Below, in pieces: positions 445 through 45,830 of a DNA stretch of 64,000 bases. Position 1 is the first letter of the stretch, and each line of letters starts with the position of its first letter. The notes beneath the pieces are model-generated. The model was not told the DNA's origin. It worked only from the letters and a program-made list of their open reading frames with translations, and ran no database searches. This DNA comes from Prochlorococcus sp. AG-409-P19 (GTDB taxonomy: Bacteria; Cyanobacteriota; Cyanobacteriia; PCC-6307; Cyanobiaceae). A program made the position numbers and the translations under genes. Location of the stretch: positions 1 through 64,000 of the forward strand of contig QCKO01000001.1 in assembly GCA_003215315.1 (NCBI GenBank), in the 5' to 3' direction.

Positions 445-786
445 TTTAGATTAGTTGATGAAATTCAAATAAACTATTATTTAATCTCCTTGTAGGGAGT
501 AGATTTGCAACTATAAGTTCAGAACCTTTTATTTACTAAACGTTCATTTCTGTTTCTTCTGTTATTCGCAGATTTGCACCTAGATAGATACAACAGGAGA
601 ACGCTAGTGGATTGGACCTGAAGCCTGTGTTCTCATAGGTGATCACACCTCTATAGGTCCTTGTTCCTTGCTTATGAAGTAACTCCTTATGAAGGAGTAG
701 TAGCTACAAACTATTATCTTACAAGGTGGTTGCCATTTTTCAAAATTGAATCGCTACTTCAAATTCAAAATTATACCTAAGAAATT
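445..786. other. Spacer between rpsR and pheT with rpmG remnant and hairpins
   Basis: This 342-base spacer separates the divergent rpsR and pheT genes. Besides the rpmG remnant it holds small perfect inverted repeats: ACTCCTT-ATG-AAGGAGT at 682-698 and AGGTG-ATCA-CACCT at about 638-651. GGACCT and AGGTCC flank the second one. The hairpins could belong to a pheT leader on the plus strand, or could be by-products of gene decay. No T-run follows them, so they are not convincing terminators. The pheT promoter should lie here, but I cannot pin down -35/-10 boxes. Confidence 0.4.
477..675 (-). pseudogene. rpmG: Decayed rpmG, 50S ribosomal protein L33
   Basis: Read on the minus strand, three frames together give a degraded L33. 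One frame (about 620-663) reads GTR, four extra codons, then VITYENTGFRSNP, matching the L33 start KGTR-VVVTLECTECRTNP with both cysteines changed. A second frame (about 579-596) reads RSPVVS, matching RSPGVS, and then hits TAG. A third frame (477-567) reads NRRNRNERLVNKRF, stop, TYSCKSTPYKEIK, stop, matching [28 protein letters not shown]. There the third cysteine codon is TGA. No ATG is found at the expected start. The position between pheT and rpsR is the normal rpmG locus in Prochlorococcus. The L33 comparison is from memory of the family. Confidence 0.78.
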
Positions 787-3640: not shown

Positions 3641-3671
3641 TTGCGTAACTGCCTAGTAGACAGTTACGCAA
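3641..3671. repeat. Perfect 11-bp inverted repeat (hairpin)
   Basis: TTGCGTAACTG at 3641-3651 is exactly complementary to CAGTTACGCAA at 3661-3671, with a 9-base loop. It is by far the strongest dyad in the spacer. The plus-strand sequence after it has a short CTTTTTAT tract about 10 bases downstream, so a weak intrinsic terminator is possible. The distance makes a structural element of a small RNA, or a protein-binding dyad, equally likely. Confidence 0.55.
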
Positions 3672-5413: not shown

Positions 5414-6262
5414 TTATCTCTTTAATGGAGATACAACTTTACTTAGCAACTTTTCTGGTCCTTCATTCATTAGCAAAGACAAGTTTGATTTTTGCGTTGC
5501 AAGAAAATAACCAGCAAATCCTAGTGCATTTATACTAAACCCTTCTGTCTTTTCTTTTGATCGTCTTATTAAGCTGATCCACTCAGGGGTAATAAGTAAA
5601 TTATAAGGTGAAATTGGTTTTTCATCATTTTGTGGGGAGCCTATATTCATTTGAAAGCACATTTTTATGTAGCTCTCGTATAATTCTTGGGACTTATCTT
5701 CTGAATATTGTCTCTTTAAAATAATTGTTGATTTTTCTATTAATGTATTATGAATATCTTTATTTTTCAATTTACTCTTAAACCAATATTCTCTAGGACA
5801 TATTCTTTGACCAGTTTTACGTCGTAATAATTGAATGTGCCTATGAGGCTGACTTGCTCCAGCCTCTGCACTGCTATTAAAAAACCATAACCCTTTAGTA
5901 TCATCTTCAACTTCAATTAGAGCAGAAAAGTCCTCAGGCTCTAACCAGCCATTCTGAGCTCGCCATGATTTAGTTAGTAATAACATATGTCCTCTCTGCA
6001 CAGGATATTTATTCAAAATTAAAACGTGCGTTTCTGACAAAGACTTTATTTCCAATCTTGTATCCCAAGGGATGAATGGATTTTGCTTTGGTCCCTGGAT
6101 TAAATAACTGTTTGGGAGCTTGCTATTTAGATATCTTAACTCATAGGGATTAGGATTTATATCAGTTTTAATAGAGCTTGTATTTAATGGTATTAATGCG
6201 CCATTAAGTAATGCTTTATTAGAAACCTTTAATGCTTCTGACCAAAGTAATTCAGTCGTCAA
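5414..6262 (-). CDS. ATP adenylyltransferase (Ap4A phosphorylase)
   Basis: A protein of 282 residues of the Apa1/Apa2 branch of the HIT superfamily. These enzymes cleave diadenosine tetraphosphate with phosphate to give ATP and ADP. The active-site motif is visible at about 135-145 as AEAGASQPHRHIQLL, the HxHxQ nucleotidyl-transfer signature. The upstream segments LNKYPVQRGHMLLLTK and NSSAEAGASQPH match the family. A C-terminal domain (SPYNLLITPEWISLIRRSKE) is also typical. The gene stands alone, with a structured spacer upstream of its start. Confidence 0.88.
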   Translation of the reverse strand: MTTELLWSEALKVSNKALLNGALIPLNTSSIKTDINPNPYELRYLNSKLPNSYLIQGPKQNPFIPWDTRLEIKSLSETHVLILNKYPVQRGHMLLLTKSWRAQNGWLEPEDFSALIEVEDDTKGLWFFNSSAEAGASQPHRHIQLLRRKTGQRICPREYWFKSKLKNKDIHNTLIEKSTIILKRQYSEDKSQELYESYIKMCFQMNIGSPQNDEKPISPYNLLITPEWISLIRRSKEKTEGFSINALGFAGYFLATQKSNLSLLMNEGPEKLLSKVVSPLKR

Positions 6263-6754
6263 GACTTAATTTGAAATAAATCGCATAATTATTATAAATT
6301 TTATTTTATAACCAAATAAATAATCTTAATTATCTTAATATCTGTCCTTCAATTTATTAAAAGATATTGATCATCATCCGAACCTGAAACGAGGAGCCCT
6401 TCAGCGAGGAGGTTTGAAGTCTAAATGTGGTTTTGGGCTCGTATGCGACTTTTAAGCCTTGCAAGGCCCATAAAGTCGCACCTTGAGAGTTGTTTGATGC
6501 CTTAGACGTTTATGTAAATAATAAATTTGCAACAAGAGTAATCAAACTAATTTTAGGTGAATTTAAAAGCACTTTTAAAAGCAAATTAAAGAAAATTTCA
6601 TCTTTTAATCAAAATTCAGTCATAGCAATGCTTTTCGTAGATTGTAGCCACTCATAATTATTGTTAAATTGCGAATTAGTGACACATTCTGCTGAAAAAA
6701 GGTTGACGGAAGCGGGGGGGAAGGGCTTAAACCTCAATCAGTAATATCTCCTCA
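6263..6754. other. Spacer with structured-RNA candidate and 5' leader
   Basis: This 492-base spacer lies between two divergent genes. The left part (6263-6375) is very AT-rich. The middle (about 6378-6490) is clearly more GC-rich and foldable and is listed separately. The right part (about 6690-6754) is the leader of the small acidic protein and contains GACGGAAGCGG followed by a run of G. No ORF of note was seen. Confidence 0.5.
6378..6490. ncRNA. Putative structured small RNA, two hairpins
   Basis: In an AT-rich spacer this block is GC-richer and contains nested complementary segments. Hairpin 1 pairs GAGCCC (6394-6399) with GGGCTC (6435-6440) and encloses TTCA/TGAA (6400-6403/6415-6418). 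Hairpin 2 pairs TGCGACTTT (6444-6452) with AAAGTCGCA (6472-6480) and encloses GCCT-TGCA-AGGC (6456-6467). The paired arms are perfect. I could not match it to 6S RNA, tmRNA, RNase P RNA, SRP RNA, Yfr1 or a riboswitch I know. Strand is undetermined. Confidence 0.4.
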
Positions 6755-6985
6755 ATGGATTGGGAGTTCTCTGAAGACTCAGCCTTTATGGCTCTTTGCG
6801 ATGCCTTTCGAGAGAGTGGCGAAACATCGGCAATGGAATTTTTAGCTAACGGTGAAGGTGCTTTTCACTTTCAAGAACTTACTCAAAACGCAGCTGGTGA
6901 AGGGGTAGATCTTAGCGATTCAGATTCTATGGATCAATTCCAGCAAGACGTAATTGAAAGTATGGAGTCATTATGTAACGACTAA
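6755..6985 (+). CDS. Small acidic protein of unknown function
   Basis: A protein of 76 residues, very rich in Asp, Glu and Ser (DWEFSEDSAFMALCDAFRES; DLSDSDSMDQFQQDVIESME) with few basic residues. No membrane segment or signal peptide is seen. It is predicted soluble and mostly helical. I do not recognise a named domain, although such proteins exist in picocyanobacteria. The start is ATG with no good Shine-Dalgarno sequence; the leader has a GACGGAAGCGG motif and a run of seven G. It is convergent with metH, 32 bases away. Confidence 0.65.
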   Translation: MDWEFSEDSAFMALCDAFRESGETSAMEFLANGEGAFHFQELTQNAAGEGVDLSDSDSMDQFQQDVIESMESLCND

Positions 6986-7017: not shown

Positions 7018-10000
7018 TTAAGTACCAAAATATTTAGCTTTAGGGTGGAAAGATATTATCGCGGTTGTACTTTGTTCTGGATAAAGTTGTTCGTTATCGT
7101 CCATACTAATACCAACTCTAGATGCTCTTAACCAATCTAATTGTTTTTTACTATCGCCAACATTTGGACATGCTGGGTATCCAAAAGAATATCTACAACC
7201 AAGATATTTAATATCTAATATATCTTTAATGTTATCAGGTTCATGATCCTTAAACCCAGATTCTATTCTAATCAAAGAGTGTATATATTCAGCTAATGCT
7301 TCCGCTAATTGAACAGTTAAACCATGAAAGTAAAGGTAATCAGTATATGAATCTTTTTTGAAAAGATATTCAGAATACTTACTTGCCGAACAACCCATTG
7401 TGACTGCTTGCATAGGCAATAAATCAGTTGGAACAGATTTATCCATATCATTAAAGAAATCAGAAATGCAATATCTATTACCAGATCTTTGACGAGGAAA
7501 AGTAAATGATCCTAACTTTTTGATAGAATGAGGCTCAAATACTTCTATATCATTTCCATTTCGTCCACATGGGAAATATCCATATACAGCCTTTGGAGTT
7601 ACTAAATTATCTTGGATAATTTTATCTAACCATTCTTTCAATATTGGTTCGGCCTTATATTTTATTAAATCCTGATATTCTTCCTTTGACTGATTTCTTG
7701 ATCTTTTTATTTGCCACTGTCCCGAAAATAATGCCTTTTTATCTAGAAATTTAACAATATCTGATATTCTTAAATCATCTTCTAATAGGCATTTAGTACC
7801 TTCAAAAGGAACATTCACTTTAGATATAACTTCTACTTTATCTGATCTACTTGTATCAATTTTTTTATCAGCTTTTATATTAGGCTTGGTTCCTAGGGTT
7901 AAATCTAGTCCTGTGATATCCTTGCCTTTACCTATAAAGATACCTTCTGGAATCTCGTTAAGAAAACCTTTATAATTATCCCAACCATCTGTTTGCTTAG
8001 CTTTCATATAACTATCCATAAATTTAAGGTCTGTAAATGCATCTTTTCCATATATAACCTTGCCTTTATATACGCTTGCACAATCTTTATTTACAAAATT
8101 GGGAGTTAATGCTGCACCTCCAAGGATAACGGGTATTGAAATTTGCTCATCATTAAGAGCTGCTAAATTTTCCATCATAAATGCTGTAGACTTCACTAGT
8201 AGTCCACTCATTGCAATACAATCAGCTTCATATTGTTTTTGTGCCTCAATAATCGCAGATACTTCTTGTTTGATTCCTAAATTGATTACTTCATAACCAT
8301 TATTAGTTAAAATAATATCAACAAGATTTTTACCTATATCATGAACATCTCCCTTGACTGTAGCAATAATAAAACGACCTTTGGATTCTATCTTAGCTCC
8401 CGATTTATCCATATATGGCTCTAGAAAAGATACAGCATATTTCATGGTTTCAGCTGATTGGAGAACGAAAGGTAGCTGCATTTGCCCTGACCCGAATAGA
8501 TCTCCTACAACCTTCATTCCGTCAAGTAGGAATTTATTTATAATTACAAGAGGTTTATACTTTTTTAGTGCCTCAGTTAAATTATTATGTAGATTTTCTT
8601 TTTCTCCATCTATAATATGAGATTTTAATCTCTCTTCAATCGGTACTTTTGTATTAACTAATGAAATTTTTTGATTATTGTTAGTTTTGACATTAGCAAA
8701 TAATGTGGTTAACTCTGTCAAGGGATCATATTGACAAATATTATCTATAAACTTTCTTCTATCATAAATTAAATCATAGCAAACTTGAATATGTTTTTTA
8801 GAAAACTTTGTTAATGGTAGAATTTTAGATGGTGAGACGATTGCGGAGTCCATTCCAGACTTAATAGCTTCATTAAGGAAAACAGAATTTAATGCTATAC
8901 GGGCTGATTGATTTAATCCAAAACTTATATTTGATATCCCTAAAATAATATGAACTAAAGGTAATTTTTCTTTAATTTTCTTTATAGCTTTAATAGTCTC
9001 TTGGCCATTTTTTCTATCTTCTTCTAAACCTGTAGAGATTGGAAGTGCTAGCGGATCATAAAAAATCTCCGTTGGTGATATCCCATATTCAGTAGCTTTA
9101 TTAAAAGCTCTTAAAGCAATTTCTAATTTTTTCTCAGCTGTCCTAGCCATTCCTGATTCATCAATTGTTCCAATAACAATTCCTGCTCCGTAATCTCTAG
9201 CTAATTCAAGGACTTTGAAAAATCGGTCTGGTCCATCTTCAAAATTTGTTGAGTTTAATATACACTTTCCTCCGGCTTGTTTTAATCCACTTTCCATCTT
9301 TTCATAGTCTGTAGAATCAAGCATTAATGGTAAGTTAATATTTTTCACTAGCCTTCTTACTATCTGATTCATATCAGATACACCATCTCTACCAACAAAA
9401 TCGACATTTACATCTAGCACATGCGCATTTTCCCTTAACTGATTCTTAGCAATAGTAATCAAACCATCCCAATCATCAGAGTTGAGAAGTTCTCTTACTT
9501 TTTTAGAACCGCTTGCGTTTAATCTTTCTCCTACGATTAAGAATGATTTATCCTGTTTATATGGTATTGATTCATAAATAGATGAAGCAGATGGCTCGAA
9601 CTCACGTTTAGACTTAACTAGTGAGGGACGATTGGTATCATTATTAAATTCTAAAGCTAAATCAGCAAGATATTTGATATGGTTCGGGGTTGTCCCACAA
9701 CAACCTCCAATTAGCTGAACCCCATAATCATATACAAAATTCATTAATTGCATTTTCATTTCTATTGGTGTTAATTTATAATGTGCAATACCTCCAATAT
9801 TTTCTGGGAGACCAGCATTTGGAATACAACTAATTTTAAAAGGAGAATTTATAGATAAATATTCTATATGTGATTTCATCTGCTCAGGTCCTGTTGCACA
9901 ATTAAGCCCTAAAATATCTAAATCAAATGGCTCAAGAATAGTTAGTACTGTATTAATATCTGTACCGACAAGCATCCTTCCAGTAGTTTCCATGGTAACT

Positions 10001-10572
10001 GAAACCATAATTGGAATTTTATTATTAGGATCTATAGCTTTTTTAACACCCTGTAATGCAGCTTTAATCTGCAAAACATCTTGACATGTTTCAATTAGAA
10101 TAAGATCAACATTACCATCTACTAATCCTTTGGCTTGCTCAAAATAAGTTTCTCTTAATTCATCAAAATTTATATGACCTAAAGTAGGTAATTTAGTGGT
10201 TGGACCTATTGATCCAGCTACAAATCTGGGTTTATCTTTGGAATATAAAGTTGCTTGTTTTTTTGCTATTTGAGCTGCTCGAAAATTAATATCATATGCT
10301 TTATCTTTAATGCCATATTCATCTAATACAATTGATGTAGCTCCAAACGTATTGGTTTCTATTACATCACATCCAACTTCAAGAAATGATTTATGAACAT
10401 ACTCTACTGAATCGGGTGACTCTAAGCATAGATTTTCATTACAACCTTCTAAATGTTCTCCACCAAAATCACAAGCTTTTAGATTAAGATTCTGAAGAGA
10501 AGTCCCTGTCGCACCATCGAATACTATTATCGGTTTTTCAGGAGAATTAATGTACGAGAGAAACTCAGACAT
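7018..10572 (-). CDS. metH: Cobalamin-dependent methionine synthase
   Basis: A protein of 1184 residues, slightly shorter than the E. coli enzyme, carrying all four modules. The homocysteine-binding barrel (about 1-310) has the zinc cysteines in GLNCATG and [11 protein letters not shown] (about 286-297). The pterin-binding domain starts near 340 ([13 protein letters not shown]). The B12 domains include the cap and [10 protein letters not shown] at about 742-751, which carries the histidine that ligates cobalt from below. The C-terminal AdoMet reactivation domain has [15 protein letters not shown] near 1140. It methylates homocysteine using methyltetrahydrofolate. Its corrinoid need fits with cobN 1 kb upstream. 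The spacer to ilvE is only 89 bases, too short for a cobalamin riboswitch plus promoter. Confidence 0.97.
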
Positions 10573-45784: not shown

Positions 45785-45830
45785 AAAAAAAGTACACCTA
45801 GAAATTTAATGCTAGGTGTACTTTTTTTTT
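45785..45830. terminator. Bidirectional intrinsic terminator between psaK and dxs
   Basis: AAGTACACCTAG (45790-45801) pairs perfectly with CTAGGTGTACTT (45812-45823) around a 10-base loop. The plus strand continues with T's to 45830, and A's precede the stem for the minus strand. It ends the convergent psaK and dxs transcripts from both sides. It is the clearest rho-independent terminator in the window. Confidence 0.95.

Follow-up and report, generated by a model that had tools for sequence, protein, structure and literature searches.

The 492-nt spacer (6263–6754) that separates the Ap4A phosphorylase gene from the gene for a 76-aa acidic protein in Prochlorococcus sp. AG-409-P19 contains a GC-rich block (6378–6512), which is tentatively interpreted here as an independent, lineage-specific small RNA, probably encoded on the minus strand and carrying two CUCCUCG stretches. 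Among the readings considered, this one is the most likely, and it is favoured by the GC island itself, the hairpin within it, the fold of the minus strand, the position between conserved zones and the recurrence of an island in related spacers. The stretch of DNA analysed, referred to below as the window, comprises 64,000 nucleotides of a 1.16-Mb assembly that is 67% complete. The Ap4A phosphorylase gene occupies 5414–6262 on the minus strand (matches to PF19327 and PF09830), and the acidic protein is encoded by an open reading frame at 6755–6985 on the plus strand, for which neither Pfam nor NCBIfam returned a family; both neighbours are thus as the sequence-only reading had described them. 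Beyond the acidic gene lies a frame at 7018–10572, which we take to be metH. The closest relatives of the acidic protein are found in loci named Prochlorococcus, and 172 relatives, spread widely across Prochlorococcus, Synechococcus and Cyanobium records, were confirmed in genome contigs.

The distinct composition that had been noted for the block is borne out by counting. GC content is 0.49 at 6375–6474 against 0.15–0.27 just upstream and 0.22–0.23 just downstream, and the richest 100 nt of the spacer core (6263–6660), at 0.51, is reached by 2 of 2000 dinucleotide shuffles. This spacer is the second GC-richest of the 17 with at least 110 nt in the window, the first being a tRNA-bearing spacer, and it ranks 12th by GC and 9th by best 45-nt hairpin among the 138 spacers counted over 384 kb of this genome; spacers in both rankings were defined by a simple longest-ORF mask, so that some of them contain small genes. 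Eight of the 11 GC-richer spacers in those 384 kb contain rRNA or tRNA according to an Rfam scan covering the window and 14 of 16 extra stretches of the genome (L156 and L157 omitted), and a GC content of 0.50 is reached by 8 of the 52 spacers of 300–800 nt. By these ranks the block is uncommon, not unique. Another GC-rich spacer of the window (445–786; maximum 0.47 over 100 nt) precedes an 833-aa frame starting at 787 and contains several short inverted repeats recognised by eye.

Two hairpins with outer stems of 6 and 9 bp had been described in the block; both are present in the sequence, and the second exceeds chance. Its arms, TGCGACTTT and AAAGTCGCA, lie at 6444–6452 and 6472–6480 with a nested GC stem within, and on the minus strand it is predicted to form a long hairpin (6443–6481) with stems of 10 and 7 bp and one bulged base. 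Its energy is −22.5 kcal/mol on the minus strand and −17.1 kcal/mol on the plus strand (z −5.42 and −4.77, respectively, for the hairpin alone). The former stability was attained by 3 of 1000 block shuffles with both strands and every position counted, and the latter by 102 of 1000 on either strand. Among 3197 minus-strand 60-nt windows, the long hairpin ranks second by energy and fourth by z. Three 60-mers of the real window are as stable as −22.5 kcal/mol, and 0–2 such 60-mers occur in each of 12 shuffled windows, eight in total; bare stems with 9 bp or more, no fewer than four of them GC, number four in the real window and one to four in each of five shuffled windows. A bare 9-bp stem like that of the second hairpin is not rare; the hairpin as a whole exceeds chance at the block level. 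The first hairpin (6394–6440), with the arms GAGCCC at 6394–6399 and GGGCTC at 6435–6440 and an inner TTCA/TGAA pairing, is weak (z −1.18 on the plus and −1.90 on the minus strand), and the predicted plus-strand fold of the region leaves it unused. Elsewhere in the window, two perfect stems, one with 11 bp (3641–3671) and one with 17 bp (45785–45828), are among the strongest hairpins, and the longer of the two looks terminator-like by eye.

Comparison of the strands points to the minus strand as the better folded. The stretch 6415–6512, whose ends were picked after the fold had been seen, has a z score of −4.83 on the minus strand (0 of 200 shuffles) against −2.46 on the plus strand (3 of 200); the corresponding values are −2.55 and −0.80 for 6360–6510, and −3.02 and −1.58 for 6378–6490. 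The z score favours the minus strand in every comparison made with equal ends, and the minus-strand G-U pairs that turn into A-C on the plus strand point in this direction too. Raw fold energies are similar between the strands, and that of the plus strand is lower for some stretches (−40.2 vs −39.7; −34.5 vs −32.4). The block had been delimited at 6378–6490, and the better minus-strand structure extends past this end, to 6507: an outer 7-bp stem is predicted between 6507–6501 (GUCUAAG) and 6425–6419 (UUUAGAC). In the preferred model, the candidate minus-strand RNA would be about 95–135 nt long and start near 6511. Its 5′ part would form the long hairpin (6481–6443) closed by the 7-bp stem, and its 3′ part would expose the two CUCCUCG copies. 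C-rich regulatory RNAs bind their target mRNAs at G-rich stretches, and the two copies may be the sites of such pairing. The RNA gene would sit in a spacer with a rapidly evolving middle.

The putative pairing sites lie on the minus strand at 6405–6411, recognised by motif count, and at 6390–6396, recognised as a direct repeat. They are located downstream of the long hairpin on this strand, and such a pair was found once in the available sequence of this genome. The block contains the direct repeat CCTGAAACGAGGAG/CCTTCAGCGAGGAG, the copies of which are 79% alike. By itself, CTCCTC is common: in the window as a whole, it occurs 30 times on the two strands against 18.45 expected, a count reached by none of 100 shuffles. 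A weak promoter-like site on the minus strand, TTGATT-16-TATTAT (6518–6545), matches at 9 of 12 positions and would place the start of the RNA near 6511; six promoter-like sites occur in 601 bases against 2.3 (sd 1.6) in shuffles. No terminator-like site was found in the 601 bases. The strong hairpin in a spacer resembles intrinsic terminators but differs from them in that no T run follows the GC stem on either strand, and an intrinsic terminator was ruled out for this reason.

The statement that the block fits no known RNA holds against Rfam 15, in which scanning of the whole window at the gathering threshold gave no match to the block, and a lax search gave five unrelated matches, each below its own cut-off. 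The same library detects known RNAs elsewhere in this genome; among the matches are three glutamine-II riboswitches (L145:18241-18303, L147:13547-13604 and L147:14924-14985) and a 5′ ureB sRNA (L146:17677-17963). With blastn at E 0.01 against 40 relatives, the own genome alone contains a match to the block; at E 0.1, 80 loci around related acidic genes contain none. At an E value of 1 or below, 174 of 400 genomes of the family, the own genome included, were matched, and the matches listed outside the block itself are fragments, none longer than 38 nt. A covariance model (R1) derived from the window sequence alone detects solely the window in 58 sources and in 41 same-genus genomes. Phage records gave eight short matches to the block (best E 2e-2), and a 24-mer of the hairpin has no match in viral contigs. 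As no relative was found, there is no covariation for the block, and even the nearest genomes with the same gene order have diverged too far for an alignment. Comparison with syntenic relatives shows the Ap4A phosphorylase to be 43–56% identical and MetH mostly 55–70%; with neighbouring proteins diverged this far, a real RNA gene could also have become unrecognisable, and the failure to find relatives is weak evidence. A hidden small protein was considered and rejected: five overlapping frames encode 24–55 aa, and Pfam gives no match to the one of 55 aa. Stops in all three plus frames are found in 27 of 29 same-genus blocks, and the two open ones (L028 and L031) diverge in their second half; a search of 201 genomes, run without a positive control, yielded nothing for a 38-aa frame in L004. 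A literature search, beyond the reach of which lay most subscription papers, found no published account of this spacer.

The spacer was compared in two sets of genomes. In the same-genus set, 33 of 41 genomes were matched and gave 30 loci including the window, that is, 29 others. In the genome-contig set, 80 of the 172 acidic-protein relatives were kept, and 21 entered the island and core comparisons, the remainder having no Ap4A gene on the expected side or a spacer outside 300–900 nt; L131, which is among the 21, coincides with the same-genus locus L004. All 29 same-genus spacers have a richest 100 nt with GC of 0.39–0.52 starting at 164–190 nt from the beginning of the piece examined (140 in the window), these positions being determined with no shuffle control and with the final 120 nt of each piece excluded. 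Among the 21 further spacers, the island is reached by at most 7 of 300 shuffles in 12, and nine have no island beyond shuffles. The 22 spacer cores show no mutual match at E 1e-3, and a profile of the same-genus block fails to recover the block of the window. Within the 29 same-genus spacers, identity beside the Ap4A gene is 0.87, 0.73, 0.78, 0.55 and 0.80 in five 20-nt bins and is 0.83–0.95 beside the acidic gene, and a separate peak of 0.75 lies within the GC block against 0.45–0.68 in the flanking spacer. The same-genus blocks (L004–L032) keep a direct repeat, with two copies of TCTAGAGACG at a spacing of about 25 nt. There is no consensus fold over all 29 blocks (energy 0) and no conserved fold in three groups of 8–10 (z −1.07 to 0.52); in a further group, of four, the consensus-fold z is −2.93 on the plus and −2.21 on the minus strand. 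In these genomes the evidence points to conservation of the sequence rather than of a fold, a pattern that fits DNA sites no less than an RNA.

The conserved zones at the two ends of the spacer are promoter-like. On the Ap4A side, TATAAT at 6291–6296 on the minus strand, within a zone conserved in same-genus spacers, is a candidate −10 box of the phosphorylase gene. On the other side, a plus-strand zone at 6703–6754 (TTGACG, a G-run and TAAA) was recognised in 87 sequences, in which GGTTGACG, GGGG and TAAA are each at least 90% conserved upstream of the acidic gene; from its sequence, this zone may be read as a promoter. The same zone (GGTTGACG, G-run, TAAA) preceding the acidic start codon has next to no consensus fold over the 87 sequences. 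Since the promoter-like zones of both neighbours are conserved outside the block, the block probably belongs to neither leader.

The nearest known counterparts are cyanobacterial Yfr1 (RF01116) and Yfr10-like RNAs, which are small spacer RNAs exposing a CUCCUC-containing motif, aCUCCUcACACAC (PMC2518516, PMC6778093). Yfr10-like RNAs conserve neither synteny nor sequence beyond the motif (PMC6778093). The block resembles them as a spacer element with CUCCUC-containing stretches, but has CUCCUCG twice and without ACAC after it. The motif ACUCCUCACACAC with up to one mismatch is absent from the 67%-complete genome, and the Yfr1 model has no match there, with the Synechococcus elongatus control being detected. 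The 6S and Cyano-1 models are likewise unmatched in this genome; given the 67% completeness, Yfr1, Cyano-1 and 6S may simply be missing from the assembly. As it lacks their motif, the block is not a member of the Yfr1 or Yfr10 RNAs; if functional, it would act by C-rich pairing, as they do. Published small RNAs of Prochlorococcus are often clade-specific, and Yfr28 and Yfr106-108 were detected on northern blots (PMC7368042). The block shares with them its location in a spacer and its narrow distribution (PMC7368042).

The interpretation of the block as a small RNA is weakened by the promoter-like site, which matches at just 9 of 12 positions, by the absence of a terminator, by the lack of a relative and hence of covariation, by the lack of a conserved fold in three of four same-genus groups, by the nine of 21 spacers that have no island beyond shuffles and by the hairpin being one of three 60-mers of this stability in the 64 kb. 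A close rival, itself a real possibility, is that this is a non-functional, fast-drifting spacer between two conserved promoters, with chance GC richness and one strong hairpin. Such drift would agree with the lack of any relative of the block by DNA, profile or covariance model, with the 22 unmatched cores and with the GC rank of the spacer (12th of 138). Equally stable hairpins arise by chance about once per window, as the eight in 12 shuffled windows indicate, and the first hairpin and the entire plus-strand block are close to shuffles. It accounts less well for the island and the hairpin each beating their own block-level controls, and for the island recurring at a similar place with a same-genus core more conserved than its flanks.

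It is unlikely that the block is instead a DNA control region between divergent promoters, in which repeated protein-binding sites matter and the hairpin is incidental. The same-genus islands keep a direct repeat but, in three of four groups, no conserved fold; the block in the window also has a direct repeat, and its position fits divergent control; however, the repeat of the window and that of the same-genus islands do not match each other, short two-copy repeats often arise by chance, and 23 islands share no k-mer beyond 40 shuffle sets except a T run. Less likely still is a leader, the block then belonging to an extended 5′ end of the mRNA for Ap4A phosphorylase on the minus strand or of that for the acidic protein on the plus strand, both of which the sequence-only reading had entertained. 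The better fold is on the strand of the Ap4A gene, and in the plus version the block contains GAGGAG, which could base-pair with the CUCCUC immediately preceding the acidic start codon: the plus block and the acidic start pair with −33.7 kcal/mol, as good a value being found in 11 of 500 block shuffles, and rank 45th among 2554 50-mers. This pairing was rejected, as it stands at about the 2% level here and is absent in relatives, only one of 28 other loci pairing at a level of at most 2 of 100 shuffles. No leader or riboswitch family in Rfam matches the block, and the conserved promoter-like zones stand between it and each gene.

A broader version of the small-RNA reading, which is considered very improbable, is that the spacer in low-light Prochlorococcus contains a small RNA gene of lasting place and GC richness but with an almost complete turnover of sequence and fold, represented here by a two-site CUCCUCG RNA that may replace Yfr1. 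If the block is not transcribed, it would serve as a useful warning that an RNA gene cannot be deduced from nothing more than a GC island and a single strong hairpin within an AT-rich spacer. If it is transcribed, it would be a lineage-specific addition to the regulatory RNAs of a group poor in protein regulators, and a case in which an RNA gene keeps its location and composition for longer than its sequence.
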